From Gammaproteobacteria bacterium (GTDB taxonomy: Bacteria > Pseudomonadota > Gammaproteobacteria > Pseudomonadales > Azotimanducaceae): a stretch of DNA of 64,000 bases. The translations under genes were made by a program, and so were the position numbers. This document shows positions 43,008 through 64,000 of the stretch, in pieces; the first letter of the stretch is position 1, and every line of letters begins with the position of its first letter. The stretch is from positions 62,001 through 126,000 of the forward strand of contig VXLL01000011.1 in the NCBI GenBank assembly GCA_009841615.1, read 5' to 3'. Under the pieces are notes generated by a model that did no database searches, was not told where the DNA came from, and was given only the letters and a program-made list of their open reading frames with translations.

Positions 43008-45350
43008 GTGAACTCCCCAAAAGCTCCTAAACGCCAATGGGCAAAACAGTATGCTGAACGTTTGCTTTCAGCTCGCTGGATTGTCGTTCTAGTCACGGTA
43101 GCTTTGGTGATCGTGGCATCTCTCGGTGTTTTACGACTTGGATTCGAGGCAGACTACAAGATATTCTTTGACGAAGACAACCCCCAGTTAATAGCGTTGG
43201 AGACGTTGGAACAGACCTATGGGAAGAGCGAAAACGTCGCATTCCTAATCGTACCCGATGACGGGAATGCTACTTCAGAAAACGCTTTGTCGGCAATCGT
43301 GTGGCTGACGGATGAGGCATGGAAAACGCCCTATTCAAGACGTGTCGATTCCCTTGCGAACTTTCAATACACGACCGCAGATGGGGACGATTTGTATGTT
43401 AGAAACCTGATCGAACGGGATGAAATATCTCGCCCACAGGCTCAGGCTCATGTACGATCAATTGCTCTGTCAGATCCACGGATTGAAGGTAGTATGCTGG
43501 CGCGAAACGGAGATGTCACAGTCGTAAACGTCACAGTTGAACTACCGGACCTATCTGGTACCGACCTTCTCAAGCCTGTGGCAGAAGTCGCTAACTTCGC
43601 AAGAGATCTTGCAGAGAAAACAGAAGAACGTTTTTCCAACCTAGACATTCGAGTTGTTGGCACGATTATGGTCAACCAAACGTTTGTGGCGGCATCTCTG
43701 GATAGCCAACTGATATTCTTCCCTGCGAGTCTGCTACTGATGGCTCTGATCTTGGGAGTGCTCACTCGAGGTATGTCTGGAGTGTTCGCGACCGGTATGG
43801 TCATGGTATTTTCTGTTTTAGCCGCTATGGGTATAGGAGGCTGGTTTGGTCTACCGTTTTCCCCGCCGTTAATGCCAGTACCAACTATCGTTCTGATGAT
43901 CGTGGTCGCAAACTGCGTACACCTGCTGGTTACTACACAGAATCGCATGCGAGCCGGGGACTCCAAGCACGACGCGATCGTCGAGTCGATTCGGTTGAAC
44001 CTACACCCAGTATTCTTAGCAAGCCTTACGACGACACTCGGCTTCCTTAGTATGAATTTTTCCGAGGTGCCGCCATACCGACACTTAGGCATGTTTGTAG
44101 CGTTTGGTATTATGGTTTCGTTCGTCCTATCTGTTACGTTCTTGCCTGCGGTTCTATCGATTCTGCCTTTCGGCGCGCGAAAGCAAAATCAAACGTCCCG
44201 TACCTTTTCAGTGAAGAGATTAGCAGATGTCGTACTTCGGTACAGAAAAGTACTGTTCTGCGTTTGGTTAATCATCGTACCTGCCATGATTCTGGCAATC
44301 ACGCGTAATGACCTGAACGATGTCTTAGTTCACTTCTTCAACAAAAGCGTTGAATTTCGACAGGATACAGATTTCATGGACGAACGTTTAAGTGGCAACA
44401 CCCTACTTGAATACTCGCTAGAAGCTACTACCGTCGGAGGAGCTACCAATCCGAACTTTCTACAAGATGTCGAGAACTTTGCAGAGTGGTACCGCAATCA
44501 GCCCGCGGTGCGACATGTGTCGACTATTACGGATACCTTTAAACAACTCAACAAAAGCATGCACGGCGATGATCCGGCAATGTACCAGATTCCAGATAGT
44601 CAAGAATTAGCCGCCCAGTACCTCCTACTTTATGAACTATCTCTGCCCCAGGGGTTAGATCTAAACAATCAAATTGATCGATCCCGTACAGCGACTAGAG
44701 TCTCGGTGTCCGCAGAAACTTTGAACTCCAAAGATCTTCTCGAAATTAACACCCGAGCGGAGACATGGTTGCAAGAAAATGCGCCACATGTATCGGGAGT
44801 CTCGGGCACGGGACCATCGACACTGTTCGCATACATCGGGCAACGCAACATTCAGACGATGCTAATCGGTACAGTAATCGTGCTTCTTGCGATTTCTGCA
44901 ATCCTCTTAGTCGCACTACGATCGTTACGAATCGGTTTAGTCAGTATTGTTCCTAATCTAACACCGGCGATTCTCGGATTCGGTGTGTGGGGCTTGACCG
45001 TCGGACAGGTTGGGCTTGCACTTTCGGTGGTTGTGGCGATGACTATAGGAATTGTCGTTGACGATACCGTGCATTTTTTGGGCAAGTATCTCCGAGCACG
45101 GCGAGAGTTAAATTTCGGCCCTGAAGCTGCTGTACGTTACTCGTTCGATACCGCTGGCCGAGCCCTTCTGACCACGACGTTTGTATTAGTGGCTGGGTTT
45201 TTGATTTTCGTGTTTTCGCCTTTTGTCCCGACGGCACAGGTGGGTATCTTGACAGCGCTGATCATCGGTTTTGCACTTGTCGCTGACCTTACACTCCTAC
45301 CCGCACTATTGCTGTGGGTTGATAGCGACAGTAAGAGTGTTCGAAAGTAA
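43008..45350 (+). CDS. MMPL/RND-family exporter
   Basis: A 780-residue inner-membrane transporter of the MMPL (RND superfamily, hopanoid/lipid exporter-like) type. An N-terminal span (about 27-50) is followed by a large periplasmic domain and a block of five or six spans (about 225-390). This layout repeats with a span near 410 and a second domain and span block (about 620-770). RND-like signatures are FFDEDNPQLIALETLEQTYG after the first span and MTIGIVVDDTVHFLGKYLR in the second block, the latter with the acidic pair used for proton coupling. Start is GTG at 43008 without a clear binding site. It opens the RiPP cluster. Elsewhere such exporters often pair with a LolA-like protein and a beta-barrel, which here lie 14 kb downstream. 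Confidence 0.85.
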   Translation: MNSPKAPKRQWAKQYAERLLSARWIVVLVTVALVIVASLGVLRLGFEADYKIFFDEDNPQLIALETLEQTYGKSENVAFLIVPDDGNATSENALSAIVWLTDEAWKTPYSRRVDSLANFQYTTADGDDLYVRNLIERDEISRPQAQAHVRSIALSDPRIEGSMLARNGDVTVVNVTVELPDLSGTDLLKPVAEVANFARDLAEKTEERFSNLDIRVVGTIMVNQTFVAASLDSQLIFFPASLLLMALILGVLTRGMSGVFATGMVMVFSVLAAMGIGGWFGLPFSPPLMPVPTIVLMIVVANCVHLLVTTQNRMRAGDSKHDAIVESIRLNLHPVFLASLTTTLGFLSMNFSEVPPYRHLGMFVAFGIMVSFVLSVTFLPAVLSILPFGARKQNQTSRTFSVKRLADVVLRYRKVLFCVWLIIVPAMILAITRNDLNDVLVHFFNKSVEFRQDTDFMDERLSGNTLLEYSLEATTVGGATNPNFLQDVENFAEWYRNQPAVRHVSTITDTFKQLNKSMHGDDPAMYQIPDSQELAAQYLLLYELSLPQGLDLNNQIDRSRTATRVSVSAETLNSKDLLEINTRAETWLQENAPHVSGVSGTGPSTLFAYIGQRNIQTMLIGTVIVLLAISAILLVALRSLRIGLVSIVPNLTPAILGFGVWGLTVGQVGLALSVVVAMTIGIVVDDTVHFLGKYLRARRELNFGPEAAVRYSFDTAGRALLTTTFVLVAGFLIFVFSPFVPTAQVGILTALIIGFALVADLTLLPALLLWVDSDSKSVRK

Positions 45351-45417: not shown

Positions 45418-45966
45418 GTGTTCAACAACCCCCTTGAATCCTTTCACAACACTGTTGCTGAAGCGAAAGCGGAACGGGAACAACTCGACCGACTGTTAAC
45501 CGTATCTTCTCCCCGAGAACTTTTGCTGTTAGTCCTCGTGTTAGTTCTACTAGCTACTCTCATCGTTTGGCTAGTGTTCGGAGTCCTTGACCGGAACATT
45601 TCCGCGAACGCTACCGTGCTTGAACATTCAATCACTGCCGATAGCTCAAACCAAGCCGTACGAATGGAAGCAAGGTTGAGTACCGAATTTGGTCCAACCG
45701 TCAAGGCTGGAATGTCTGTATTGATTAAACCACTGAAAGGTCAAGGAAACACTGCGACAATACAAGGAAATATTCGATCGATTCTGTCTTTAGATATAGC
45801 AGAAGAGGTATCTGTTGCGGGTCGTGCCCCATTAACGACCAAACTTTTGCAGATTACGGTCGATCCAGACGTCGATCTTTCATCCTACTCTGGTTCCGAG
45901 TGTCGTCTGATCATCCAACTTGGACGACTGTCCCCACTCGAGTTGATCGGAAAAACACTGCTTTAA
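45418..45966 (+). CDS. Shortened HlyD-like NHLM secretion protein
   Basis: A 182-residue protein like the N- and C-terminal ends of NHLM bacteriocin secretion proteins (HlyD family). It opens with a cytoplasmic helix and the family's LDRLLTVSSPRELLLLVLVL run, then one membrane span (about 33-58), then a beta-rich domain with VKAGMSVLIKP, and ends SPLELIGKTLL. The coiled-coil hairpin and lipoyl halves found in full adaptor proteins are absent, so it cannot reach an outer-membrane channel in the usual way. Start is GTG at 45418. It is directly followed by the peptidase/ABC gene, one base after its stop. Confidence 0.75.
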   Translation: MFNNPLESFHNTVAEAKAEREQLDRLLTVSSPRELLLLVLVLVLLATLIVWLVFGVLDRNISANATVLEHSITADSSNQAVRMEARLSTEFGPTVKAGMSVLIKPLKGQGNTATIQGNIRSILSLDIAEEVSVAGRAPLTTKLLQITVDPDVDLSSYSGSECRLIIQLGRLSPLELIGKTLL

Positions 45967-45967
45967 T

Positions 45968-48178
45968 ATGGCTTCGCGCTCGACTCAGACTACAAGCCAA
46001 GAGTCTGTTCTTCGTTCAAAAAAGCAAAAGATAACTACTCCAGTTCTTTTGCAAATGCACGCTACGGAGTGTGGTGCTGCATGTTTAGGAAGTGTGTTAG
46101 CTTATTTCGGACGATGGGTTCCACTTACGCAATTACGGGAAAAGTGTGAAGTTAGCCGAGACGGAAGCAGTGCGGCAAGTATTGTGCGAGCAGCCCGACA
46201 CTACGGCCTTGACTGTAAGGGTCTGAGCGTAAAGGCCGATCTGTTAAAAAACCTTACTCTGCCGCTCGTCCTGTTCTGGCAGTTTAGTCACTTCGTCGTG
46301 CTAGAAGGTATTACGGAACGACACTATTATTTGAACGATCCAGCTTCAGGAAGACGGAAACTCACAAAGGAAGAATTTGTAAAAGGTTATAGCGGAATTG
46401 CGCTTAAATTAAACCCAAGCGAAGACTTCACACCCGGTGGAGAGTGGCCAAACCTTTTCTTACAACTGAAGAGTTTTCTCTCCGGAGCATGGCGAATACT
46501 TACAGGAGTGTTGGCTTGTGCCCTGATGATAACACTGTTAGCTCTTGTGATACCGGTGTCGTTGACTGTATTCGTGGATGAAGTGATGCATAGCTTCGGG
46601 GCTTGGTTCGGTGTTGTGGTCGCGCTTCTCGCCGCTGGTGTATTGATATATGCGTTAACCTGGTTGAAACACCGATTGCTTGAACAACTATCGGTAAGGA
46701 TATCGGTGAATGGATACAACGAGAGTTTGACCAAACTCTTACGATTGCCGCTTGAGTTTTTTGCGCACCGGCAGGTTGGCGATTTGACAGACCGAGTGTC
46801 TACGATCGATCGAATCGCGAAGAATCTTACGACAGAGTTCCTAGTACTTCTCATTGATATGGCAATGAGTGTAGTACTTCTGATCACGATGCTGCTCTTT
46901 AACGTGATTCTCTCTATGGTAGTTTTACTGCTCGCTTTGCTCCACGCGTCGCTGACTTATATTCTCAACCACAAACAGTCGATTCAGAGTCAAGCGATGA
47001 GACGTGAGCAAGGACTACTACTCGCCATCGGTATGCAGATGCTAAGCCACGCCGAAAATCTTCGCATGACTGGCGCGGATGATCGGTTTTTTGCTCGTTG
47101 GAGTGGGCAACAAGCACGAGAACTCCAAGCGCGGCAACTAAATTCCGAATTGAGTGCAGTGAATTCTGCACTTCCAGGTCTTATTTCAGTTTGGCGAAGT
47201 GCTGCGGTCCTCACAATCGGCGGTTTTCTCGTTATTTCTGGCGAAATGACACTAGGAGTCTTAGTTGGGTTTTACTTCTTAGCCGAGATGTTTTTAGATC
47301 CTATTGGCCGCTTTATGGAATTTGCCGATAAACGACAAACACTTGAAATCGATCTACAGCGATTACAAGACATTTCAAATACGACAGAAGACCCAATATT
47401 CAGCCGGCGAAGTCCCGAATCCGTTGCAATCCCCACGTTTAAGGGTAGATTTCAGTTAACAGGTCTGGTTGAGTTGCGTAATGTGACTTTCGGGTATAAC
47501 AAGAGCCGTCCTCCCTTGCTCAAAGATTTCAACCTCACGATCAAACCCGGGCAACGGGTCGCGGTGGTCGGAACTAGTGGATCTGGAAAGTCGACGTTGC
47601 TGCGCCTAATATCAGGAATCAGTCATCCGTGGTCGGGAGAGATTTTGTTTGACGGTCATTTGAGAGATGAAATTCCAGAGGAGGTTCTTCGAAGGTCAAT
47701 ATCGGTCGTGAACCAGGAGGCGATGCTCTTTGCCGCGACCGTAAGGGACAATATTACCCTTTGGAATCCTGCTGTTTCTGATGAAATCATAGTTTCCGCG
47801 ACTCGAGACGCATGCATTCACCACGATATCTTGGTCCGTCCCCACGGTTATTCGACGGTAGTCGAGGACGGCGGCGCGAATTTCAGTGGCGGTCAGAGAC
47901 AACGATTAGAAATCGCACGAGCTTTGGTTGGTAATCCTACCTTGCTTTTTCTAGATGAAGCGACAAGTTCGCTTGACGCAGCGACCGAAGAGTCAGTGGA
48001 TGATAGTTTACGACGAAGGGGAGTCACATGTTTCATCATCGCGCATCGGCTCAGTACCGTCCGTGATTGCGACGAAATCATCGTACTCGAAAAAGGCGCA
48101 GTTGTGCAACGGGGTACGCACGACGAGATGATCGCCGATAGAGATGGCACCTACTACAAGCTAGTTAGGTCGGGTTGA
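45968..48178 (+). CDS. C39 peptidase/ABC exporter of the NHLM type (ABC1)
   Basis: A 736-residue peptidase-containing exporter that cuts the leader from a RiPP precursor and pumps out the core. The N-terminal C39 domain has the catalytic Cys35 in LLQMHATECGAACLG, His108 in SHFVVLEG and Asp124 in LNDPASGRR. Six membrane spans occupy about 155-440. The ATPase has Walker A GTSGSGKSTLLRL (about 535), signature FSGGQRQRLEIARAL and Walker B LLFLDEATSSLD. All catalytic residues look intact. It overlaps the next ABC gene by one base (TGATG). The expected cleavage site, after Gly-Gly or Ala-Gly, fits the SAG in the precursor at 58496-58747. Confidence 0.93.
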   Translation: MASRSTQTTSQESVLRSKKQKITTPVLLQMHATECGAACLGSVLAYFGRWVPLTQLREKCEVSRDGSSAASIVRAARHYGLDCKGLSVKADLLKNLTLPLVLFWQFSHFVVLEGITERHYYLNDPASGRRKLTKEEFVKGYSGIALKLNPSEDFTPGGEWPNLFLQLKSFLSGAWRILTGVLACALMITLLALVIPVSLTVFVDEVMHSFGAWFGVVVALLAAGVLIYALTWLKHRLLEQLSVRISVNGYNESLTKLLRLPLEFFAHRQVGDLTDRVSTIDRIAKNLTTEFLVLLIDMAMSVVLLITMLLFNVILSMVVLLLALLHASLTYILNHKQSIQSQAMRREQGLLLAIGMQMLSHAENLRMTGADDRFFARWSGQQARELQARQLNSELSAVNSALPGLISVWRSAAVLTIGGFLVISGEMTLGVLVGFYFLAEMFLDPIGRFMEFADKRQTLEIDLQRLQDISNTTEDPIFSRRSPESVAIPTFKGRFQLTGLVELRNVTFGYNKSRPPLLKDFNLTIKPGQRVAVVGTSGSGKSTLLRLISGISHPWSGEILFDGHLRDEIPEEVLRRSISVVNQEAMLFAATVRDNITLWNPAVSDEIIVSATRDACIHHDILVRPHGYSTVVEDGGANFSGGQRQRLEIARALVGNPTLLFLDEATSSLDAATEESVDDSLRRRGVTCFIIAHRLSTVRDCDEIIVLEKGAVVQRGTHDEMIADRDGTYYKLVRSG

Positions 48179-51120
48179 TGGACCACAAGTCAAACGAATT
48201 CACATCCGTTTCAGAAATTGCGTTGCGCTCTAAGGTCAGCGTACCCTGTGAGGGAAATTCACCTGTTGTGCTAGACGACAACGAGAGCTTCTGGTATGTC
48301 GAAAATGGTGCTGTCGACCTCTTTCTTATCGAAACCATGGACGGTATAGAACAAGCGGCACCACAACACCTCATGCGAGTTGAATCCAAGAGGTTATTAC
48401 CTAGTTTTGTCCCCGATAAACAGGACAGAGACGGAAGTAAAACTACTCTCGGACTGGTGGCTAAAGGCAAACCTGGTACGCGCTTGACTCGCATACCGGT
48501 CTCTGATCTAGCCAAGATTCATGCGTCCGAGTTAGCGGAGCAAATCGATGGCTGGTTGACCGCCTTGACTCAAGCCTTGTCGCGCTTCGTTATTCGTTCT
48601 CCGCGACCGAATGCACTCATAGAACCCACCTCGGAAATCACTCTATCCAAAGGAATAGTGAGCGTTTCTCGTAGCGTGGTCTGGGTGTCCGGTGCAACTG
48701 AGGGTACGGGTTTATTCATGGACATGGTAGATCCTGCGGAGATAGTCAAAGGAGCGACTGAATCGGCAATCCCTCTGACCCGGGCAAGCTGGATCTCCAT
48801 ATTCGAAGAGGTAACCATTTCAGGTTACTCTACAGAAACACTAGCGAAAGATGGTTCACTCTTAGCTGCTCTCGCGTCGTTTCATAGGATCGCCTTACAC
48901 ATGGAACGCCTCAACCGCCGATTAGCAGTTGTAGACGACGCGAATCTCGAGCGCGATCGAATCATGAGTCGCCGTGTTGCCGAAGACGTTGCTAGAACTC
49001 GGCTCTTCGACATTTACGACCAGCAGAGAAAAACCGAGACGCAAGCTACCGACACCGCGCTTGCGAGTGCGCTCCGGCTCATCGGTCGTCGCTTGGGTAT
49101 AGAGTTCAAAATTCCTCGAAGATCGGAGTCATTCGAAGAGCCGGTTACCCTAATTGACATTCTCGACGTATCAAGTGTACGCGCGAGGCGTGTGAAACTC
49201 GATTCAGACAGTCGATGGTGGCACAGCGACAGCGCAGTGCTCTTAGCGTTCCGGGCGACTGACAATCAACCAATCGTCTTGATACCCGGAATGCACGGCC
49301 GGTATAACCTAATCGACCCAGTTTCTAAAAAGCGACTGATAACTTCTAAAGCTCGCGCTGCAGAACTGAAAGAAGAAGCTTGGATGTTTTATCAACCTTT
49401 ACCGTCGGGCTCGGTGAGTTCGTCCGAGCTCCTACGTTTTGCCCTACGACGCTCCGGTAAGGACCTGACGCGATTAGTTCTATCCGGTATCGTTGGTGGG
49501 CTAGTAAAACTGGTACCGGCACTAATGCTTGGACTAGTAGCAAACCATATCGTGGCGGGTGGAAATACCACAGGACCACTCTTTGTAGTAGCGCTACTGC
49601 TCGCCGTGATTGGACTACTGAGTGTGTTTGTCAACCTGTTAGAAAACACTTCGATGATGCGTTTTGAGGGCCGCTCTGCAACTCGACTTGAAGCAGCATT
49701 TTGGGATCGCCTCATGCGACTTCCCTCGGACGTTCTCCATCGCCAACCCAGTGGAGACTTAGCGATGTCGGGAACGGCGTTTCAGAATTTGCGAGACGGT
49801 TTGCAGAGAGTGGTCGCCAACAGCGTGCTGTCTCTTGTCTTCTTATTACCTGTCTTCGGTGTCGTCTTCTTTTACGATGTTGTACTAGGAAGCGTTGTCT
49901 TGATATTTAGTGTAGTTGCTCTTTCGATCATGATCTTTTGGGGAATGTGCCAAATATCACCTTATAGTCGAATGATTAGTGCGATCCGTCGCGTGACTGG
50001 GCTACTGTTCGAAATTATCGAAGGTATTTCAAAGCTTCGCGTTGAGAATGCTGAAGGTTCCGCATTCGCTATGTGGGCACAGGACTATCGTGAACAAAAA
50101 CGCGCGGAACTGAAACTTGGTAAGTATGAACGCCATGCACGAGCGTTAGGTGCTGCACTACCATTTGTCGCGGGAGCGGTTCTGGTGTTTTTCATAGTCG
50201 CGATTGGAGATGGCGACTTTCTAGTTGGTGATTTTTTAATCGTCTTCGCTGTATTCATTGTTTTTCAGCATGCCATTGCACGGTTCGGTGAGTCTTTCGG
50301 TTTGGTTGCTTCCATGTTGCCGGCACTGAATCAGATGCGTTCAATGCTTGCTGCTGACCCGCAAACCAAGACTTTAGGAGATCCAGTCGAGAGTCTGCAT
50401 GGAGAAGTCTTGTTCGATCGGATCTCTTTTCGTTACACATCGGATGGTCCACTCGTTCTCACCGACGTTACGATTCACGCCCGTCCTGGCGAATTTATCG
50501 CAATTGCAGGTGAATCTGGTGCGGGGAAGAGCACGCTATTTCGACTTGCAATCGGTCTTGATCGGCCTACCAATGGTGCTGTTTACTACGACGGTCGTGA
50601 TTTGCGACACCTGAATTTGAAACAGTTACGACGTAAGATGGGAGTGGTGCCCCAATCAGTCCGACTTCATCCTCAGGATATCTGGGACAATATCGTCGTC
50701 CATCATGAAGACCCCAGCATTGAACAGGTTTGGGAAGCGACTCGTTCCGCTAGCATTGAGCAGGAAATTCGATCAATGCCTATGGGAATGATGACGATGG
50801 TCGGTGCAAGCGGCTCAGTTCTCTCCGGAGGAGAAAGTCAGAGGATTTCTATTGCTAGATCATTGTTGGGTAACCCTCGAATCATGTTGTTTGACGAGGC
50901 AACCAATTGGCTTGATAACGACAAACAAGCGCGAGTCATGCAAAACTTAGCACTCCTCACCTCAACAAGGATCGTTATCGCACATCGTCTTTCAACCTTG
51001 AAACAAGCTGACCGAATTTACGTCATGCAAGCTGGTAAGGTTGTGCAAAGTGGCACGTTCGACGAACTCATCGAGGTTCAAGGTGTGTTCAAAGAACTGG
51101 TAAAACGACAGATAGCTTAG
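48178..51120 (+). CDS. NHLM-type ABC transporter, permease/ATPase (ABC2)
   Basis: A 980-residue partner of the peptidase exporter. About 420 N-terminal residues form a soluble region typical of NHLM ABC2 proteins, opening with a cupin/cyclic-nucleotide-like stretch (SFWYVENGAVDLFLIETMDG). Membrane spans begin near 435 and run to about 720. The ATPase domain follows: Walker A GESGAGKSTLFRL at about 778, signature SVLSGGESQRISIARSLLG, and Walker B IMLFDEATNWLD, where the usual SALD reads NWLD. Start is the ATG at 48178, overlapping the previous stop by one base; a TTG three bases upstream is possible. It probably forms a heteromer with ABC1. Confidence 0.9.
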   Translation: MDHKSNEFTSVSEIALRSKVSVPCEGNSPVVLDDNESFWYVENGAVDLFLIETMDGIEQAAPQHLMRVESKRLLPSFVPDKQDRDGSKTTLGLVAKGKPGTRLTRIPVSDLAKIHASELAEQIDGWLTALTQALSRFVIRSPRPNALIEPTSEITLSKGIVSVSRSVVWVSGATEGTGLFMDMVDPAEIVKGATESAIPLTRASWISIFEEVTISGYSTETLAKDGSLLAALASFHRIALHMERLNRRLAVVDDANLERDRIMSRRVAEDVARTRLFDIYDQQRKTETQATDTALASALRLIGRRLGIEFKIPRRSESFEEPVTLIDILDVSSVRARRVKLDSDSRWWHSDSAVLLAFRATDNQPIVLIPGMHGRYNLIDPVSKKRLITSKARAAELKEEAWMFYQPLPSGSVSSSELLRFALRRSGKDLTRLVLSGIVGGLVKLVPALMLGLVANHIVAGGNTTGPLFVVALLLAVIGLLSVFVNLLENTSMMRFEGRSATRLEAAFWDRLMRLPSDVLHRQPSGDLAMSGTAFQNLRDGLQRVVANSVLSLVFLLPVFGVVFFYDVVLGSVVLIFSVVALSIMIFWGMCQISPYSRMISAIRRVTGLLFEIIEGISKLRVENAEGSAFAMWAQDYREQKRAELKLGKYERHARALGAALPFVAGAVLVFFIVAIGDGDFLVGDFLIVFAVFIVFQHAIARFGESFGLVASMLPALNQMRSMLAADPQTKTLGDPVESLHGEVLFDRISFRYTSDGPLVLTDVTIHARPGEFIAIAGESGAGKSTLFRLAIGLDRPTNGAVYYDGRDLRHLNLKQLRRKMGVVPQSVRLHPQDIWDNIVVHHEDPSIEQVWEATRSASIEQEIRSMPMGMMTMVGASGSVLSGGESQRISIARSLLGNPRIMLFDEATNWLDNDKQARVMQNLALLTSTRIVIAHRLSTLKQADRIYVMQAGKVVQSGTFDELIEVQGVFKELVKRQIA

Positions 51121-52515: not shown

Positions 52516-54903
52516 ATGACTGAAAATTTAAGCATCGGAAATACGGTCGGCACCGGCGAACCGGACGAGATGAGATACTTTGAGCCGTCGTTTCTCAACG
52601 CGCTTCCGCATTACTTGCCGCTTCTCATTTTCCCGCTATTGATTCTTGCCGCTTACTATGGTGGTTTTTGGTTATTAGGACCATTCGTCTTTATGAGTGT
52701 CGCCGGTTTTCTTGATCGAGTGTTCGGTGTCGATGGTCTCAATATGAACCCGAGGGGGATTTCTGAACGACGATTTATTTGGTACAACATTCCAGTTTGG
52801 GCATGGGCGGTGCTATGGCCACCAACATTAGTCTTCGGACTATGGCAGATCTGTGGCGGAGCTTCGTATCCGATTTGGCAAAAGGTATGTCTCGTAATGC
52901 TGCTGACTATGGAAGCACAAGCGGTATTTGTCGTTGGGCATGAACTGGTTCACCGACGCTCGACTTGGGAACGAAGACTCGGTGAATTTCTTCTTGCTTC
53001 AAATTCTTATCCTCAATATGCCACGGAGCATGTGTACATTCACCACGCGAAGGTCGGTACTCCTCACGATGTAGGATCTGCGCCAAAGGGCGAAAGTTTC
53101 TGGCGATACTTCCCGCGAGAAGTCGTTAATAATCTCACCAATTCGTGGCAAGTCACTGGCGAACGCTTAGCTCGTCGAAAACTGTCCCGTTGGCACTATA
53201 GCAATCCTTTTTGGCGTTACGGTATTGCGTTAGCTTTCTGGTATGCCCTAGTTTATTACCTAGGCGGAATTTGGGCGGTGCCCATTTACATATTCTTGGG
53301 GCTGAGCTGCGTATTCTCGATGAAGATCAGTAACTACTTCCAACACTACGGGCTACGTAGAGTTTTAATGCCTAACGGGCGATGGGAGAAAATTTCACCT
53401 CGCCATTCATGGAATGCCGACTGGAAGTTCACCAATTGGATGTTTTTCAAAATGCAAAGGCACGCTGATCATCACGCTATGGCAACCCGACCATACGCAC
53501 AGTTGCAGCATCGCGCGGACGAGTCTCCTGAGCTTCCCGGTACATACGGTGATATGATGAACCTTGTGCTCCGTCCAAAACGTTGGTTCGCAAAGATGGA
53601 TCCTTTAGTCGACGAGTGGCGAAAACACTTTTATCCTGACATTGACGACTGGAGTCCCTACGACAGCTCTGTCTCGGCTGCAAGGCCGGACGACTTTAAT
53701 GAGATCGTCGAAATTTTCGGCGTTGCACCGAGACTGGCAGAGCGAATCGAACGCAATCCCGAGCTTCTCGACAATTTATCCGAACGGGAGTTCACAGATC
53801 TCAATCTTCCAAAAGGAATATTGGACGAACAGGAATATGACATAGCACGTCGCGGGCTAGCAAGACTCTACTGGACTACCGAAATGGGAGTTCAAGAAAT
53901 GCGCGACTTGATTGTGGAAATACCATCCACAAACTCAAAAGAGACCGCGGAAATTACGCGGAATTGGGTGAATGACAAGAGCTTTCAGATTGGCATGCAT
54001 GTCCTCCGAGGAAATTTGTCGACTGACGAAGCATCAATCGCGCTTTCCAATCTTGCCGAAGCTACGATTACGACCGTCATTTCTTCGACGATTACAGACT
54101 ACTTTGAGCAAGTGACCGATGACTCAGACGGTGGAGTAGCGGTGATCCTGTTCGATGAACTCGCGACCAAGGAGGCGTTCCCTGGTGTCAAGATTAGAGT
54201 ACTAGCCGTGTTTGACGGTTGGGAAAATGACCAAGTCAAGCGTATGTCACGCAGTTTGCGTGATCGACTTGGACATCTCGCAGCGGATAGCTTGCTTTTC
54301 TCGCCGCTTCAAAGAAAAACTGAGGAGGTTCTTGCACTACCATTCGCGGATCTTCAAGAACACTTCCGACGGTCTGATTTAGAAACTATCCCTAGCCTAA
54401 CGAGAACTCGATGTGTCTGGGAACATGGAGATACTGGACTAGCAGGTAGATTTGACAGCTCTCGACGCGAGCTCATCAACGAGTGTCGAATGAACAAACC
54501 TCAATGCCTAGCGAACGCATCCTCAAGTTCTAAAGGGGACCCTCACAAGTCTCCTTACCTCGGATTGAGTGACAAGATCAATCAATTTGAAGAGGTCGCA
54601 AGGTTCTTACAGTTAACGAATCGGACAACTGACCTAAACGACTCCGCCCCAACGGCTACAACCATATTCCACCAATTGGGTGAAAACGAATTAGCAGAAG
54701 GTACGAAGTTGTGGCGTACTCTTCAGGGAGTTGCTCGCCTCGTACATGAAGATAGTTTCGATTTAGGTGAGGCTAAACCAAGAGTGCAGCAACTCATTGC
54801 CAATTCGTGCAGACATGATGAGTTTGACGCTTTAACGTCCAAATTAACAGAAATCGACTTAAACACAACTGAAGCTATCAACGCTATCGTCGAGCGTGCG
54901 TAG
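52516..54903 (+). CDS. AlkB-type membrane di-iron hydroxylase fused to a degenerate GlnE-like module
   Basis: A 795-residue fusion. Residues 1-385 are a membrane alkane hydroxylase: several spans and all histidine boxes, HELVH (142-146), HVYIHHAKVGTPHD (172-185), NYFQHYGL (273-280) and HADHH (316-320). Residues about 390-795 resemble glutamine-synthetase adenylyltransferase: FGVAPRLAERIERNPELLDN matches its N-terminal helices, and VAVILFDELATKEAFPGVKI onward (541-567) aligns without gaps to the GlnE stretch around GKLGGRE and DIDLIFVYD. HFRR, RCVWEHGDTGLAGRF and a late LWRTLQGVARLVHED also fit. The nucleotidyltransferase residues are lost: GG reads AT (550-551) and the two metal-binding Asp read Lys559 and Arg561. 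The second module is therefore probably non-catalytic, perhaps a binding or regulatory part. The hydroxylase may oxidise Leu of the core or a lipid. Confidence 0.85.
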   Translation: MTENLSIGNTVGTGEPDEMRYFEPSFLNALPHYLPLLIFPLLILAAYYGGFWLLGPFVFMSVAGFLDRVFGVDGLNMNPRGISERRFIWYNIPVWAWAVLWPPTLVFGLWQICGGASYPIWQKVCLVMLLTMEAQAVFVVGHELVHRRSTWERRLGEFLLASNSYPQYATEHVYIHHAKVGTPHDVGSAPKGESFWRYFPREVVNNLTNSWQVTGERLARRKLSRWHYSNPFWRYGIALAFWYALVYYLGGIWAVPIYIFLGLSCVFSMKISNYFQHYGLRRVLMPNGRWEKISPRHSWNADWKFTNWMFFKMQRHADHHAMATRPYAQLQHRADESPELPGTYGDMMNLVLRPKRWFAKMDPLVDEWRKHFYPDIDDWSPYDSSVSAARPDDFNEIVEIFGVAPRLAERIERNPELLDNLSEREFTDLNLPKGILDEQEYDIARRGLARLYWTTEMGVQEMRDLIVEIPSTNSKETAEITRNWVNDKSFQIGMHVLRGNLSTDEASIALSNLAEATITTVISSTITDYFEQVTDDSDGGVAVILFDELATKEAFPGVKIRVLAVFDGWENDQVKRMSRSLRDRLGHLAADSLLFSPLQRKTEEVLALPFADLQEHFRRSDLETIPSLTRTRCVWEHGDTGLAGRFDSSRRELINECRMNKPQCLANASSSSKGDPHKSPYLGLSDKINQFEEVARFLQLTNRTTDLNDSAPTATTIFHQLGENELAEGTKLWRTLQGVARLVHEDSFDLGEAKPRVQQLIANSCRHDEFDALTSKLTEIDLNTTEAINAIVERA

Positions 54904-58390: not shown

Positions 58391-58428
58391 CAAAAATGCA
58401 AAAGCCGCCACCTCACTGAGATGGCGAC
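58391..58428 (-). terminator. Rho-independent terminator of the precursor gene
   Basis: On the minus strand the stem GTCGCCATCTC / GAGGTGGCGGC (58404-58428, three-base loop, two mismatches) is followed by TTTTGCATTTTT. This is a good terminator for the precursor transcript. On the plus strand it lies just after the stop of the 372-residue protein and could also end that operon. Confidence 0.75.
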
Positions 58429-58439
58429 TCCTCTGATTC

Positions 58440-58495: not shown

Positions 58496-58747
58496 CTACC
58501 AGCAACAACAAAGACCAGCAGAAATTGCTTCGAGTTGTTCCTCGGTGATGTTCGGATCGGGCGGCAATGCAAGGTGAACTGTTTGCATGTCGCTCTCATG
58601 AACCTTAATAGTCATCGAATCCGGAATCGTAATTCCTAACTCATTGCTGATGGTCATCTTAGGATTAGCGAGAAGCGCTTGCCGGAACTGTTCATCCACA
58701 GCAGACTTCTCGACGATTTGTTGAAGCATTTGATCGCCACTTCTCAT
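58496..58747 (-). CDS. RiPP precursor: NHLP leader with predicted pentapeptide core LCCCW
   Basis: An 83-residue precursor. The start is ATG at 58747 with GAGGA eight bases upstream; an in-frame extension to 58852 would place the leader beyond the binding site. Residues 10-65 form the nitrile-hydratase-like leader: VDEQFRQALLANPKMTISNE, then LGITIPDSMTIKVHESDMQ and VHLALPPDP. The leader ends EEQLEAISAG. Ala-Gly (77-78) is a fitting C39 peptidase site and leaves only Leu-Cys-Cys-Cys-Trp (79-83). All three Cys can be cyclised by YcaO; Trp and Leu match the flavin halogenase relative and the AlkB-like hydroxylase of the cluster. The gene points against the rest of the operon with its own promoter and terminator. 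Confidence 0.9.
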   Translation of the reverse strand: MRSGDQMLQQIVEKSAVDEQFRQALLANPKMTISNELGITIPDSMTIKVHESDMQTVHLALPPDPNITEEQLEAISAGLCCCW

Positions 58748-59100: not shown

Positions 59101-59976
59101 TTGATCAACCAAACTTTAAAAATTGAATACAACCATGAGTCGAGAACGGTCCCTCATATAGATATCTATTTACAATCGAATCGATTTTTTGTGCTTTGTG
59201 CGTTAACTCTACTGCTGTCGATTTCTCGATTTGCGACCATCAGCGCAGAAGCAGAAACACCTGAGGAAAAAGGGATGAGAATTGCCCTTCAAGCTAGTGA
59301 GAGTAACGAAGGCTTTGGGGACTTTTCGGCTGAGTTGACTATGGTGATTCGTGATCGCCGAGGTGGCGAAAGTACTAGACAAATGCGATTTAAGGTACTT
59401 GAGGTACCCGACGATGGAGACAAGAGTTTGTTCGTATTCGACCAACCAAGGGATGTAAAAGGCACAGCACTTCTGACCCACGCTCATATAAATGCCCCAG
59501 ATGATCAATGGTTGTATCTTCCAGCACTAAAAAAGGTAAAACGCATTAGTGCTTCAGAGAGATCGGGATCATTTATGGGGAGTGAATTTGCGTATGAAGA
59601 CATGCGAGCAGGAGAAGTAGCGGAGTACACCTACAAATACTTACGTGAGGAACCTTGCGGTGATTTGACATGCACGGTGATTGAACAGTACCCTCTAGAT
59701 GAAAAGTCTGGATATAGTAAAAAGGTAATCTGGCAGGATACTGAGGAGCTGAGATCATGGAAAATGGAACTGTACGATCGCAAGGAGTCACATTTAAAGA
59801 CCCTCACATTCGCAAACTACAAACAACACGTTGATAAGTATTGGCGCGCTGAAGAACAAACGATGGAAAATCATTTAACCGGTGCTACCACGGTTCTGGA
59901 ATGGACCGAGTTTGAGTTCGGCAAAGACCTAGAAGAAAGCGAATTTACTCAGACGGCTCTACGACGCATTCGCTAA
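59101..59976 (+). CDS. Outer-membrane lipoprotein-sorting (LolA-like) protein
   Basis: A 291-residue exported protein. The start is TTG at 59101 with AAGAGAG upstream; a hydrophobic segment at about 31-50 precedes SAEAETPEE, a likely signal-peptide end. The mature part has the LolA-like fold pattern of the family often named outer membrane lipoprotein-sorting protein: FSAELTMVIRDRRGGESTRQ, DDQWLYLPALKKVKRISASE, RSGSFMGSEFAYEDM and CTVIEQYPLDEKSGYSK. Such proteins are frequent partners of MMPL exporters. It is followed at once (TAATG) by a beta-barrel gene. Confidence 0.82.
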   Translation: MINQTLKIEYNHESRTVPHIDIYLQSNRFFVLCALTLLLSISRFATISAEAETPEEKGMRIALQASESNEGFGDFSAELTMVIRDRRGGESTRQMRFKVLEVPDDGDKSLFVFDQPRDVKGTALLTHAHINAPDDQWLYLPALKKVKRISASERSGSFMGSEFAYEDMRAGEVAEYTYKYLREEPCGDLTCTVIEQYPLDEKSGYSKKVIWQDTEELRSWKMELYDRKESHLKTLTFANYKQHVDKYWRAEEQTMENHLTGATTVLEWTEFEFGKDLEESEFTQTALRRIR

Positions 59977-61205
59977 TGCGACACAGTGTCCTCATCGCAC
60001 TGCTCGGGTTCATAAGTGCGACGTCTGCAGTCGCACAAACTTTCGATGTGAACAGTGAGATTAGCTTGCAAGGTCGATGGTATCCGCAATCCCCATTATT
60101 TTCTGAGCAGAGTTCCCTGGCGATGGGAGCGGTTGCAAAGACGACGCTTCATTTAGAACTTGCGTCAAAGACTAGCTTTACTTTTACTCCACTTTACCGA
60201 TATGACAGTGCTGACTCGCAACGGACGCACGGAGACGTACGCGAAGCTTATTTCTTGATGTATGGAGATTGGAAAACCTCTTCGTGGGAACTTCGCCTGG
60301 GTCAAGCAAGCGTGTATTGGGGCGTTACCGAGTTGTACAACCTTGTAGACATCGTAAATCAAACGGACTTAGTTGAACACCCACGCAATCGCCCGAAACT
60401 AGGACAACCAATGGTGCACCTAACTCTTTCGGGCGACTGGGGAATCGCTGAGTCTTTTTTGTTACCCTACCACCGCCAGCGTACATTTCCCGGACCGGAG
60501 GGCCGTCTTCGATCGCGATTTCCCATCAATGAGAATGCGAGTTATGAACACCCAGATGAAGAGAATCACGTCGATGTCGCATTTCGTTACAGTAATTCTG
60601 TAGGTCCATTTGACTTTGGATTGAGTATGTTTGTGGGTACTAATCGGGAACCAGCTTTCGTAGCCAGCGAACAAACAGAGGCAACAACACCTGAGTATTT
60701 CACTCTACAGCCCTACTATGAACAAATAGAACAAATTGGCCTAGACGTGCAACTCACTACTATCGGATTGCTCTACAAGCTTGAAGCAATACAACGAAAC
60801 GGTATGCTGAATCTCTTTGGAGCGGAAGAGAGCTATCACGCCGTGATTCTTGGCACCGAACACACTATTTACAACCTCTTTAACTCCTCAGCAAGTCTGA
60901 CGGTGCTTGCCGAATGGTTGTACGATGCGCGCGGGTCCAGGGCGACCAACGTTTGGACGAACGACTTGTTCCTCTCAGGATTTCTTTCCTTGAATGACGT
61001 TGCGGGTACAGAATTTGTCGCAGGTCTACTCGCAGATTTAGACTATGACTATCGTGCACTCAACCTAGAATTCAAACGCCGGCTGTCAGATTCGTGGACC
61101 ATGCGTTTTGAGAGCATTGTGAATTTGACCTCTGACCCCGATGATTTAACGTACGATGGTCGAAAAGACAGTTTCTTGGGAATAGATTTCACTTTTGGTT
61201 TCTGA
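59976..61205 (+). CDS. Outer-membrane beta-barrel protein of the MMPL/LolA-like set
   Basis: A 409-residue protein with signal peptide (about 1-20, ending SAVAQ). The rest has alternating hydrophobic/polar strands with aromatic girdles and ends in an aromatic residue (GIDFTFGF), as for outer-membrane barrels. WELRLGQASVYWGVTELYNL is similar to the DUF1302-type barrel pattern. It overlaps the LolA-like gene by one base. Probable role: outer-membrane passage or display of the MMPL substrate. Confidence 0.75.
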   Translation: MRHSVLIALLGFISATSAVAQTFDVNSEISLQGRWYPQSPLFSEQSSLAMGAVAKTTLHLELASKTSFTFTPLYRYDSADSQRTHGDVREAYFLMYGDWKTSSWELRLGQASVYWGVTELYNLVDIVNQTDLVEHPRNRPKLGQPMVHLTLSGDWGIAESFLLPYHRQRTFPGPEGRLRSRFPINENASYEHPDEENHVDVAFRYSNSVGPFDFGLSMFVGTNREPAFVASEQTEATTPEYFTLQPYYEQIEQIGLDVQLTTIGLLYKLEAIQRNGMLNLFGAEESYHAVILGTEHTIYNLFNSSASLTVLAEWLYDARGSRATNVWTNDLFLSGFLSLNDVAGTEFVAGLLADLDYDYRALNLEFKRRLSDSWTMRFESIVNLTSDPDDLTYDGRKDSFLGIDFTFGF

Positions 61206-61305: not shown

Positions 61306-62577
61306 ATGATCCAACCTGGCCGACAGTCTTTAAACAGAATTGCAGTTATTGGACGGGGCACCGCAGGATCTTTAGCGGCTGCCCAAGTCACTCACCAGCT
61401 CTCGGATGGCGAGTATGAACTACACCATATCTACGACTCGCGCATTCCAGTCATTGGAGTAGGTGAAGGCAGCTGGCCGAGTCTGGTTCAAGAATTGGCG
61501 CAACTAACGAATCTACCCCACGAAAAAATTCAACGAGAGATAAAAGGTACGCGTAAATACGGAGTTGCCTTCGAGGGATGGGGACAACGCAAACAGAATT
61601 TCATTCATTACTTTACACCACAACAAGTTTCCTACGCCTACCATCTAGCGGCAGACTTGTTAGCAGAACTGCTTCATGAAAGTGCAAATGCAACACACAT
61701 TGACGCAAAGGTTCTCAATATCACACGGGACGACGGTAGTGCTCGAATAGATTTCGAAGGTCGAGAATCAGAGACCTATGACCTCGTTTTCGATGCTCGC
61801 GGATTTCCAAAAGAGCTAAATTCCGAGCAAAACATCGATATTTCATTTATTCCTACAAATACCGCGGTGATTCGTCGCTGCCCAGCAATCATACAAACCG
61901 AAGATGGACTTGTACTACAACACACGTACACGCGTGCGGTGGCTCGACCACACGGCTGGGTATTCGTGATTCCGTTGACTGCGCATACGTCGTATGGATA
62001 CATTTTTAATCGAGACGTGTCTGATCTTGAAGCAATTGAAGATGACTTTGATGAACTTCTAGAATCGGACGGTGTGCACGAATTCGAGCAACGTGCTGTT
62101 ATTCAGTTTCCCAATTTCGTTCACCGACACTTATTTGATGGTGTCGTAGCTCGAATCGGAAACGCGGCGGCATTCATGGAACCTCTTGAGGCAACGGCGA
62201 TAGTTTCTGCACAACTTCAAATAGGGATGGTTCTACATATCCGACTCAATCGCGCCATAGAGCACATTGAACACGACGCACCGGTAGTCAATCGATTCTT
62301 GGTTAATACCATTCTTCGTTATGGTTTGTTCGTCGGATGGCACTACTCTCGCGGATCGACGTACAAATCAGAGTTCTGGGACTTCGCTCGGGAACACATT
62401 TGGCCGAAACACCGAACCGTGGCTGCTCCAAAGCAAGTGGATTGCAATGCACTGACTAAGTTTGATGAAATGTTGCAGCTGCTAAAGAGTCCCGTGATCG
62501 ATAAAGCGGACTGGCACAAGATGTGCGCAGTACCACTCACTAGTTACGCACAGATTTCACAGGGACTCGGTTGCTAG
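61306..62577 (+). CDS. Flavin-dependent tryptophan-halogenase-like enzyme
   Basis: A 423-residue flavoenzyme relative. The start is the ATG at 61306 with AGGA five bases upstream (a TTG three bases earlier is less likely). FAD loop IAVIGRGTAGSLAAAQ, PVIGVGEGSWPSLVQELAQL and a Lys in GTRKYGVAFEGWGQ at the position of the catalytic lysine are seen. The halogenase WxWxIP signature reads WVFVIP, so its second Trp is Phe. EPLEATAIVSAQLQ stands for the usual DPLESTSI. It is shorter than most tryptophan halogenases (about 500-540). It could halogenate or hydroxylate the core Trp or simply be a monooxygenase. It is the last gene of the cluster. Confidence 0.82.
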   Translation: MIQPGRQSLNRIAVIGRGTAGSLAAAQVTHQLSDGEYELHHIYDSRIPVIGVGEGSWPSLVQELAQLTNLPHEKIQREIKGTRKYGVAFEGWGQRKQNFIHYFTPQQVSYAYHLAADLLAELLHESANATHIDAKVLNITRDDGSARIDFEGRESETYDLVFDARGFPKELNSEQNIDISFIPTNTAVIRRCPAIIQTEDGLVLQHTYTRAVARPHGWVFVIPLTAHTSYGYIFNRDVSDLEAIEDDFDELLESDGVHEFEQRAVIQFPNFVHRHLFDGVVARIGNAAAFMEPLEATAIVSAQLQIGMVLHIRLNRAIEHIEHDAPVVNRFLVNTILRYGLFVGWHYSRGSTYKSEFWDFAREHIWPKHRTVAAPKQVDCNALTKFDEMLQLLKSPVIDKADWHKMCAVPLTSYAQISQGLGC

Positions 62578-63013: not shown

Positions 63014-64000
63014 ATGAAGCAGAGAGCAATAAAACGATTGTCCTTGTTACGACCATCGGTGTTAATACCGGTTCTAGCAATGGTCGCGCTCCCGAGCAAC
63101 TTGTCGCTGATCGCTGAAGAAGTCACACGCAAAGACACTTCAAACACTGACGACCCTGGCTTCACCACGCTCAATGGTACCCTGTTGAAGTTCACCAGTG
63201 TAGAAGCAGAAACCTCTGGACTAACTCGAAAATACCCTCACACGTACTCTGAAGAGAACCGAGACCTGACGTTGCAATTTGCGGCGGGTCTTGCTGCGGG
63301 AGATATAGACGATGACGGAGACATCGATTTATACGTTGTCGGAGGGAATACGAACCCTAACGCACTTTACCTAAACAATGGTGATGGGACGTTCGCTGAA
63401 GTGGCGGAAGACAAAGGTGTCGGAGTGCTACATTGGGGTAGCGGCCCTGCGTTTGGTGATATCGATAGTGATGGCGATCTAGATTTATTTATCGGTGCGG
63501 TAGAAAATGATCCAATCTATGTATTCGACAATCGATTAAGCGATGCTGTAGGTAAATTTGTTGATATCACCGCAGATTCAGGTATCACACTCCATGCTAA
63601 AAACACTATCTCAGCCACGATGTCCGACTATGACCGAGACGGTTGGATAGATTTGTTTTTGACCCATTGGGGTGAAGTTCGGTTCGAACTCTCAGACACA
63701 GAAACGGTATGGAGAAACGAAGGGGGCGGACTATTTTCAAACACAAGCAATATGTCCCACATTAGTACTTTAATCTTAGATCTCAGCACCGATTGGAGCT
63801 ATACCGCAAATCTATTCGATATTGACAACGACGATGACCACGACCTGCTTCTTGTGAGTGATTTCAATACAAGCCACGTCTTGAAAAATTACAACGGAAA
63901 TAATTTTTATCGGATAACAGATCGTAAAGTGATCAAAGATCAAGCAGGTATGGGTGCCGCTGTGGGCGATTATGACAACGATGGTGACTTCGACTGGTTT
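63014..64000 (+). CDS. Secreted FG-GAP/VCBS-repeat (CRTAC1-like) protein, partial
   Basis: Runs off the window at base 64000; 329 codons are seen. ATG at 63014 starts a signal peptide (MKQRAIKRLSLLRPSVLIPV, then a hydrophobic stretch ending near LIAEE). FG-GAP-type repeats follow with calcium-binding loops: GDIDDDGDIDLYVVGG, GDIDSDGDLDLFIG, SDYDRDGWIDLFLTHWG, FDIDNDDDHDLLLVSD and GDYDNDGDFDWF. The protein probably folds as a beta-propeller outside the cytoplasm. No catalytic function can be inferred. It is separated from the RiPP cluster by the gap above. Confidence 0.85.
   Translation, partial: MKQRAIKRLSLLRPSVLIPVLAMVALPSNLSLIAEEVTRKDTSNTDDPGFTTLNGTLLKFTSVEAETSGLTRKYPHTYSEENRDLTLQFAAGLAAGDIDDDGDIDLYVVGGNTNPNALYLNNGDGTFAEVAEDKGVGVLHWGSGPAFGDIDSDGDLDLFIGAVENDPIYVFDNRLSDAVGKFVDITADSGITLHAKNTISATMSDYDRDGWIDLFLTHWGEVRFELSDTETVWRNEGGGLFSNTSNMSHISTLILDLSTDWSYTANLFDIDNDDDHDLLLVSDFNTSHVLKNYNGNNFYRITDRKVIKDQAGMGAAVGDYDNDGDFDWF

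Follow-up and report, generated by a model that had tools for sequence, protein, structure and literature searches.

What a bacterium makes from a precursor peptide with only five residues behind its leader is the question raised by a gene in the window, the whole 64,000 nt stretch of DNA that was analysed here (Table 1). Its translation on the minus strand (58747..58496) reads MRSGDQML...EEQLEAISAGLCCCW and then TAG, while the plus strand of 58496-58747, read likewise, does not contain the precursor gene. The sequence AGAGGAA, 7 nt 5′ of the ATG, can be read as a putative ribosome-binding site. The leader model TIGR03793 matches residues 6-78 of the 83 with 72.6 bits, above its curated cut-off of 50.9, which leaves exactly five residues beyond the leader; among solved structures, the MprE7 proteusin chimera 8tb1 is closest in sequence (phmmer, E 1e-9). 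A preliminary description of the locus had proposed a five-residue core behind a leader ending in SAG, and such an LCCCW precursor gene is confirmed, at exactly the coordinates given and on the minus strand.

Table 1. Features of the precursor locus, in window coordinates.
Feature	Coordinates	Strand	Basis and remarks
MMPL/RND-like exporter	43008..45350	+	label by reading of sequence; homologue near precursor in 17/80 loci (best 80 of 156), three at just 42% identity
HlyD-like secretion subunit	45418..45966	+	relatives in 20/80 loci (best 80 of 156); longer homologue in L146 matches PF13437
NHLM ABC1, peptidase C39/permease/ATPase	45968..48178	+	TIGR03796 828 bits, just under cut-off 853; PF03412 E 5e-36
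NHLM ABC2 permease/ATPase	48175..51120	+	TIGR03797 654 bits, under cut-off 709
NHLP leader domain (about 1-63) fused to class II terpene-cyclase-like domain, 430 aa	51144..52436	+	motif DLDSS at 205-209
AlkB-like membrane di-iron oxygenase domain with GlnE-like C-terminal part, 795 aa	52516..54903	+	PF00487 E 2.7e-28; PF03710 E 1.2e-6
SrpC, leader-binding domain fused to YcaO cyclodehydratase, 781 aa	54906..57251	+	TIGR03882 129.6 bits and TIGR03604 262.7 bits (both over cut-off); PF02624 E 3e-90
Cryptic PT-barrel (ABBA-fold) prenyltransferase, 372 aa	57265..58383	+	predicted fold
Terminator-like hairpin	58400..58432	-	downstream of precursor; consensus scan found 1 vs 0.5 expected, weak
SrpE-type precursor, 83 aa	58496..58747	-	NHLP leader 1-78, core LCCCW 79-83, stop TAG; translation and TIGR03793
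LolA-like outer-membrane lipoprotein-sorting protein	59101..59976	+	PF17131 E 2.4e-60; 39/80 loci (best 80 of 156)
DUF1302-like outer-membrane protein	59976..61205	+	PF06980 weak, below cut-off; 29/80 loci (best 80 of 156)
SrpI, flavin-dependent peptidyl-Trp brominase, 423 aa from ATG	61306..62577	+	PF04820 E 1.6e-44; Trp halogenases in PDB; residue positions

The core and its length are kept in homologues, as the preliminary description had expected. A first search of 97 related genomes gave a match at E 0.001 in 22, of which 17 (the window's own among them) have a full-length relative, in which the core before the stop is LCCCW in 16 and LSCCW in one (G049); across these 17 genomes, similarity in the DNA 3′ of the stop is confined to the closest relatives. 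A wider scan of one genome per species (84,980 species) used two leader patterns that excluded the core and returned 156 loci, the best 80 of which were examined; the remaining 76 are less similar. All of these best 80 of 156 loci, in a ranking that slightly favours core matches, carry LCCCW directly followed by a stop (TAG in 45, TAA in 32 and TGA in 3), written in nine different 15-nt codings. Together with the window's gene they give 81 precursor genes, 80 of them distinct as DNA, where Leu79 is encoded by four codons, each Cys by both of its codons and the stop by all three. LCCCW thus remains unchanged despite synonymous codon and stop changes, so that selection acts on the core at the protein level. 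The same conservation rules out a chance open reading frame, and the stops that end all 17 full-length relatives and the best 80 of 156 loci rule out a sequencing frameshift or a longer hidden tail; the long unrelated tails and the frameshift past Trp that had been named as refuting the proposal occur in neither set.

The best 80 of 156 loci come from metagenome-assembled genomes (MAGs) of Gamma-, Alpha- and Deltaproteobacteria, Acidobacteria, Gemmatimonadetes, Binatia and Rhodothermales, a spread that binning errors could inflate; the MAGs that carry LCCCW loci are presumably of sponge origin. Sampling by taxonomic rank returned 4 matches in 369 genomes at class level (E 1e-8; the window's own, G163, G274 and G290), the window's own genome alone in 398 at phylum level, and 43 in 200 at family level (E 1e-12), where the seven cores examined among newly found loci were all LCCCW.

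The locus is almost certainly srpE of the sponge-type srp RiPP cluster, together with that cluster's published steps. The peptide is the published SrpE, and because the precursor has already been described, the finding as first given is no discovery. Nguyen et al. 2021 (JACS) is said to be the founding paper on the srp cluster of sponge microbiomes. By experiment, all three Cys residues of SrpE -LCCCW become thiazolines through the YcaO enzyme SrpC, and bromine is placed on indole C6 of the C-terminal Trp by SrpI, which needs the leader to be attached (PMC10286304, consulted in part); the first of these steps bears out the tandem thiazolines of the preliminary description. The published SrpI has Lys84 and the loop P105-Q-Q-V-S109, and the published SrpE has the motif NLTEEQL at 66-72 (PMC10858898, in the portions consulted). 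The window's SrpI, numbered from the ATG at 61306, has K84, Y102, P105, Q106, Q107, V108, S109 and Y110 at eight published positions, and its K135 coincides with an implied ninth, the end of the published LysC fragment 85-135. The window therefore shares with the srp cluster the NHLP leader, the LCCCW core, the SrpC YcaO, the SrpI brominase and the published residue positions, and differs in leader residue 67, which is Ile instead of Leu (NITEEQL at 66-72); NLTEEQL itself is found in L065 and L066.

The YcaO protein is encoded two genes away from the precursor, and the SrpI homologue 2.6 kb away. Among 45 retrieved SrpI copies, YFTPQQVSY is exact in 34, differs by one residue in 2 and does not fit as a pattern in 9, while GTRKYG around the Lys is present in 43. 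SrpI occurs in 32 of the 35 searched genomes with an LCCCW or LSCCW core, as compared with none of the five searched genomes without these cores. LCCCW stands without SrpI in G006, in the single-chromosome genome G478 and in the fragmentary G483; G006 and G478, each of which has another, distant PF04820 protein, argue against a strict link between the core Trp and bromination. The G049 locus (L020) with LSCCW, the sole core seen in which a Cys of LCCCW is replaced by Ser, adjoins an SrpI of 62% identity. Some SrpI genes are interrupted, by one in-frame TAG (G475:C73:21867-23135 and G485:C45:5623-6888) or by a split over two frames (G023:C63), through real loss or assembly error.

Two further enzymes encoded beside the precursor raise the question of whether these published steps complete the product. 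For the unannotated 372-residue neighbour, the prediction is a PT-barrel (ABBA) prenyltransferase: its structural model is a ten-stranded barrel of alpha-beta-beta-alpha repeats, a shared fold that in itself does not prove activity. Scans of 52 members (alignment A2, the window and 51 of 64 retrieved ORFs) matched no known prenyltransferase family in Pfam or NCBIfam, and a profile search matched none in the PDB. The 430-residue protein begins with an NHLP part that scores 45.6 bits against TIGR03793, below the 50.9 cut-off, and matches 8tb1 and nitrile hydratases. A profile of its cyclase-like domain (alignment A3, the window and 44 of 55 retrieved ORFs) hits drimenol synthase 9mhs (E 4.4e-7), whose DLDTT lines up with DLDS[ST]. 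DLDS is present in 54 of the 55 retrieved cyclase ORFs (DLDST in 40, DLDSS in 13 and DLDSA in one); the sole miss, L034, is a truncated frame and was left out of the alignment. Judged by this motif, the protein would have the DxDD/DxDTT-type proton donor of class II terpene cyclases.

The remaining neighbours include a protein with four His motifs (HELVH, EHVYIHH, NYFQHYGL and QRHADHH), whose patterns recur in all 37 retrieved full ORFs and which we take to be those of AlkB alkane monooxygenases. Its fusion of a fatty-acid-desaturase/AlkB-like domain to a GlnE-like part (52516-54903) is an unusual pairing. The MMPL-, LolA- and DUF1302-like neighbours would suit a lipid-like product. Farther along, at 63014-64000, a long ORF has repeats that on reading resemble the FG-GAP/VCBS type; it is matched in 4 of the best 80 of 156 loci.

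From these genes, we infer a brominated thiazoline meroterpenoid peptide as the srp product. The NHLP leader would present the C-terminal pentapeptide to the tailoring enzymes; SrpC would convert the three Cys residues to thiazolines and SrpI would brominate the C-terminal Trp to 6-bromo-Trp in a leader-dependent manner, as published for SrpE. The PT-barrel enzyme would attach a prenyl group to the peptide, the NHLP-fused enzyme would cyclise the prenyl chain, most likely on or next to Trp, and the AlkB-like oxygenase would hydroxylate an alkyl part. The C39 peptidase of NHLM ABC1 likely cuts after Ala-Gly and exports the product, which would involve ABC2 and the HlyD- and MMPL-type proteins. 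The chances that prenylation and cyclisation take place on the srp product are about even in our judgement. The complete reading falls just short of even: a meroterpenoid pentapeptide with three thiazolines, a 6-bromo-Trp and a prenyl group added by the PT-barrel enzyme and cyclised by the leader-fold cyclase, belonging to a family of Cys-rich NHLP cores of 4-6 residues in which the prenyltransferase is constant, the Cys enzyme is exchangeable (YcaO or MbnB-type oxidase), and the halogenase and cyclase go with the Trp-ending core.

Co-occurrence is consistent with the prenylation and cyclisation steps. An initial synteny count of 66/80 for the cyclase was too high, because short matches came from the precursor's own NHLP part, and was replaced by a count of full-length ORFs (55/80, one of them truncated) and by a search limited to the cyclase domain. 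That co-occurrence search covered 52 genome handles; since G462, G463 and G465 have coordinates identical to, and so repeat, G010, G014 and G004, it includes 39 distinct LCCCW/LSCCW genomes. The cyclase domain and the prenyltransferase are each present in 38 of the 39, and the exception is the fragmentary G483; the cyclase of G013 is broken into pieces. These counts are only suggestive, because related genomes are not independent.

Moreover, weaker cyclase-like genes occur in three genomes without LCCCW (G012, G055 and G163) and as a second such gene in G484. In each of these four genomes, the cyclase-like gene has a prenyltransferase-like gene as its immediate neighbour, with NHLP precursors near; the prenyltransferase-like matches have E 6e-6 in G163 and 3e-12 to 1e-28 in G012, G055 and G484, with a broken frame in G012. 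The class II motifs are DADST in G012, DADDT in G055, DTDDT in G163 and DADTT in G484, and the cores nearby are GDHIVW in G012, two Trp-less cores with Tyr and His in G055, one containing CWSNCSDMGP in G163 and DGSTDYAWDC in G484. The precursors adjoining these pairs (L181, L182, L183 and L186) thus have cores quite unlike LCCCW. The distant pairs lend independent support to a prenylation-cyclisation module acting on NHLP peptides, and the pairing raised the probability that we assign to the terpenoid reading from somewhat below even to only just below it. They also show that the cyclase occurs beyond LCCCW clusters. A restriction of the cyclase to Trp-ending cores was considered as well and is too strong a claim in view of the distant cyclase-like genes of G012, G055, G163 and the second one of G484; both G055 cores beside one such gene lack Trp. 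Prenyltransferase-like genes stand beside NHLP precursors in G471 and G476 too (cores such as SGGYY and DIDTW), where the stretches examined around the precursors contained no cyclase match, and a halogenase-like gene of 23% identity is found in G476 and G484. The one-contig genomes G055 and G911 have 13 and 16 NHLP matches at E 1e-12, and the G055 cores examined are longer and unrelated.

Sister precursors with other short cores form the wider family. In genus g246, reached through the class-level search, five of six genomes have precursors that are 54-99% identical to that of G274, which in turn shares 48% identity with the window's precursor. The g246 cores are LCCC (twice), LCCCT and LCCCL, and one genome has both LSCCI and LTCCGC. 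Neither a PF04820 halogenase nor the cyclase domain was found in any of the six genomes, and the prenyltransferase is present in all five that have a precursor, in one of them as three adjacent copies. The sister loci are L146:9905-10150, L151, L152, L153, L154 and L156, in genomes of 1.2-1.9 Mb; at L187:2505-5933, the three prenyltransferase homologues lie in a row in the cluster with core LTCCGC. The G274 precursor is surrounded by YcaO (54% identity), AlkB-like (45%), MMPL and both ABC genes. Further, a second cluster in G464 combines an LCCCL core with ABC, AlkB-like and prenyltransferase genes, and MCCCGI is the core of a second precursor in G472, G476 and G480 (L078, L098, L107 and L149). 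At L149:15049-18266, the MCCCGI precursor lies between a UbiA-type prenyltransferase and an MPAB/rubber-oxygenase-like protein. The cores of G023 are VCQC, GGECIC and LCACM (L147:9978-12781, L147:14409-15482 and L148:1470-1721), and near them are an MbnB/TglH/ChrH-type oxidase with a DUF2063 partner, two prenyltransferase homologues and a methyltransferase; the 33 kb examined there contained no match to the window-type YcaO. We found no description of such variant 4-6-residue Cys-rich NHLP cores in the literature searched, which included few subscription papers and gives no proof of novelty.

Known systems offer partial precedents for the predicted terpenoid steps. One of them is NctPC, whose original study is reportedly that of Hubrich et al. 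2024. According to the text available from PMC13290415, NctPC is a fusion of a PT-barrel with an MstE-like class II cyclase that geranylgeranylates Trp and cyclises the chain, so that both cases place a PT-barrel and a class II cyclase in one peptide pathway; in contrast, the window's predicted prenyltransferase and cyclase are separate proteins, and the latter carries an NHLP domain as its fusion partner. In the mpp cluster, a leader-dependent peptide brominase (MppI) likewise stands beside an ABBA-type prenyltransferase (MppC), but the leader is Nif11-like, the core is a lanthipeptide and neither a YcaO nor a cyclase is named in the parts consulted (PMC11791876, PMC12715784). PalX/PalQ shares an NHLP precursor whose C-terminal Trp is modified by an isoprenoid, although PalQ belongs to the isoprene-synthase superfamily rather than the PT-barrels and the core is DNVRRFFW (PMC10853753, as far as consulted). 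The prenyl and terpene steps predicted here differ from what is published for srp: the available SrpI literature (PMC10286304, PMC10858898) does not mention prenylation of SrpE, and ‘prenyl’ appears zero times in the main text of PMC10858898. More broadly, no report linking srp or proteusins with a prenyltransferase, terpene cyclase or alkane oxygenase was recognised in the literature searched, in which subscription papers were few; the review PMC10373908, in the text available, mentions both SrpI and prenyltransferases.

Three other explanations were weighed against the meroterpenoid reading. The product may end as the tri-thiazoline 6-bromo-Trp pentapeptide, with the PT-barrel and cyclase-like proteins serving as chaperones or acting on another substrate such as quinones or carotenoids. 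This we regard as unlikely, though well worth keeping in view: thiazoline formation and bromination are the sole steps given in the SrpE literature, as represented by the accessible text of PMC10286304, but the prenyltransferase and cyclase accompany the precursor in nearly all of the distinct LCCCW/LSCCW genomes, the cyclase bears an NHLP domain that resembles the leader of the precursor, and in four other clusters NHLP precursors are likewise accompanied by distantly related versions of both genes. To our knowledge, SrpC and SrpI are the only srp proteins to have been assayed, and we know of no natural srp product identified to date. A different possibility is that the prenyl group goes onto a Cys sulfur, the newly formed N-terminus or some other shared position, and that Trp takes the bromine alone. 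The prenyltransferase homologues (31-37% identity) beside the Trp-less cores LCCC, LCCCL, VCQC and GGECIC speak for it, since in those clusters the acceptor cannot be Trp, as do the distant homologues beside Trp-less cores with Tyr or His in G055 and G471. SrpI and the cyclase, however, are missing from all six genomes of the Trp-less genus, distant prenyltransferase homologues also adjoin the Trp-containing cores GDHIVW, DIDTW and DGSTDYAWDC, and the PT-barrel and class II cyclase of NctPC act on Trp (PMC13290415, in part). On balance, a shared acceptor other than Trp is distinctly doubtful.

The preliminary description had instead suggested that the azoline peptide binds copper or iron, or acts as a small toxin or signal. 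Metal binding now appears very improbable. A run of three thiazolines formed from Cys might in principle chelate a metal, and the divergent sister cluster of G023 has the MbnB/TglH/ChrH-type enzyme with its DUF2063 partner; yet the 10 scanned window proteins include no metal-uptake or storage gene and no methanobactin-type MbnB or MbnC, and G023 has other cores and no match to the window-type YcaO near its precursors. We know of no published metal binding by an LCCCW-type peptide, and the analysis gave no support to a toxin or signal role. The small NHLP core and the azolines of that description therefore stand, whereas its proposed functions do not, and it had overlooked the brominase that acts on Trp, the prior publication and the neighbours that point to prenylation and cyclisation.

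For the srp family, the neighbouring genes suggest that the published product is unfinished, and the main lead is the predicted terpenoid branch, together with the wider family of 4-6-residue cores. The Trp-less sister cores provide a natural comparison for the role of each enzyme. The calculated masses are 650.08 Da for the brominated tri-thiazoline, 854.27 Da with C15H24 and 922.33 Da with C20H32; if both enzymes do act on LCCCW, the expected native masses would shift, and sponge metabolomes could be searched for them.
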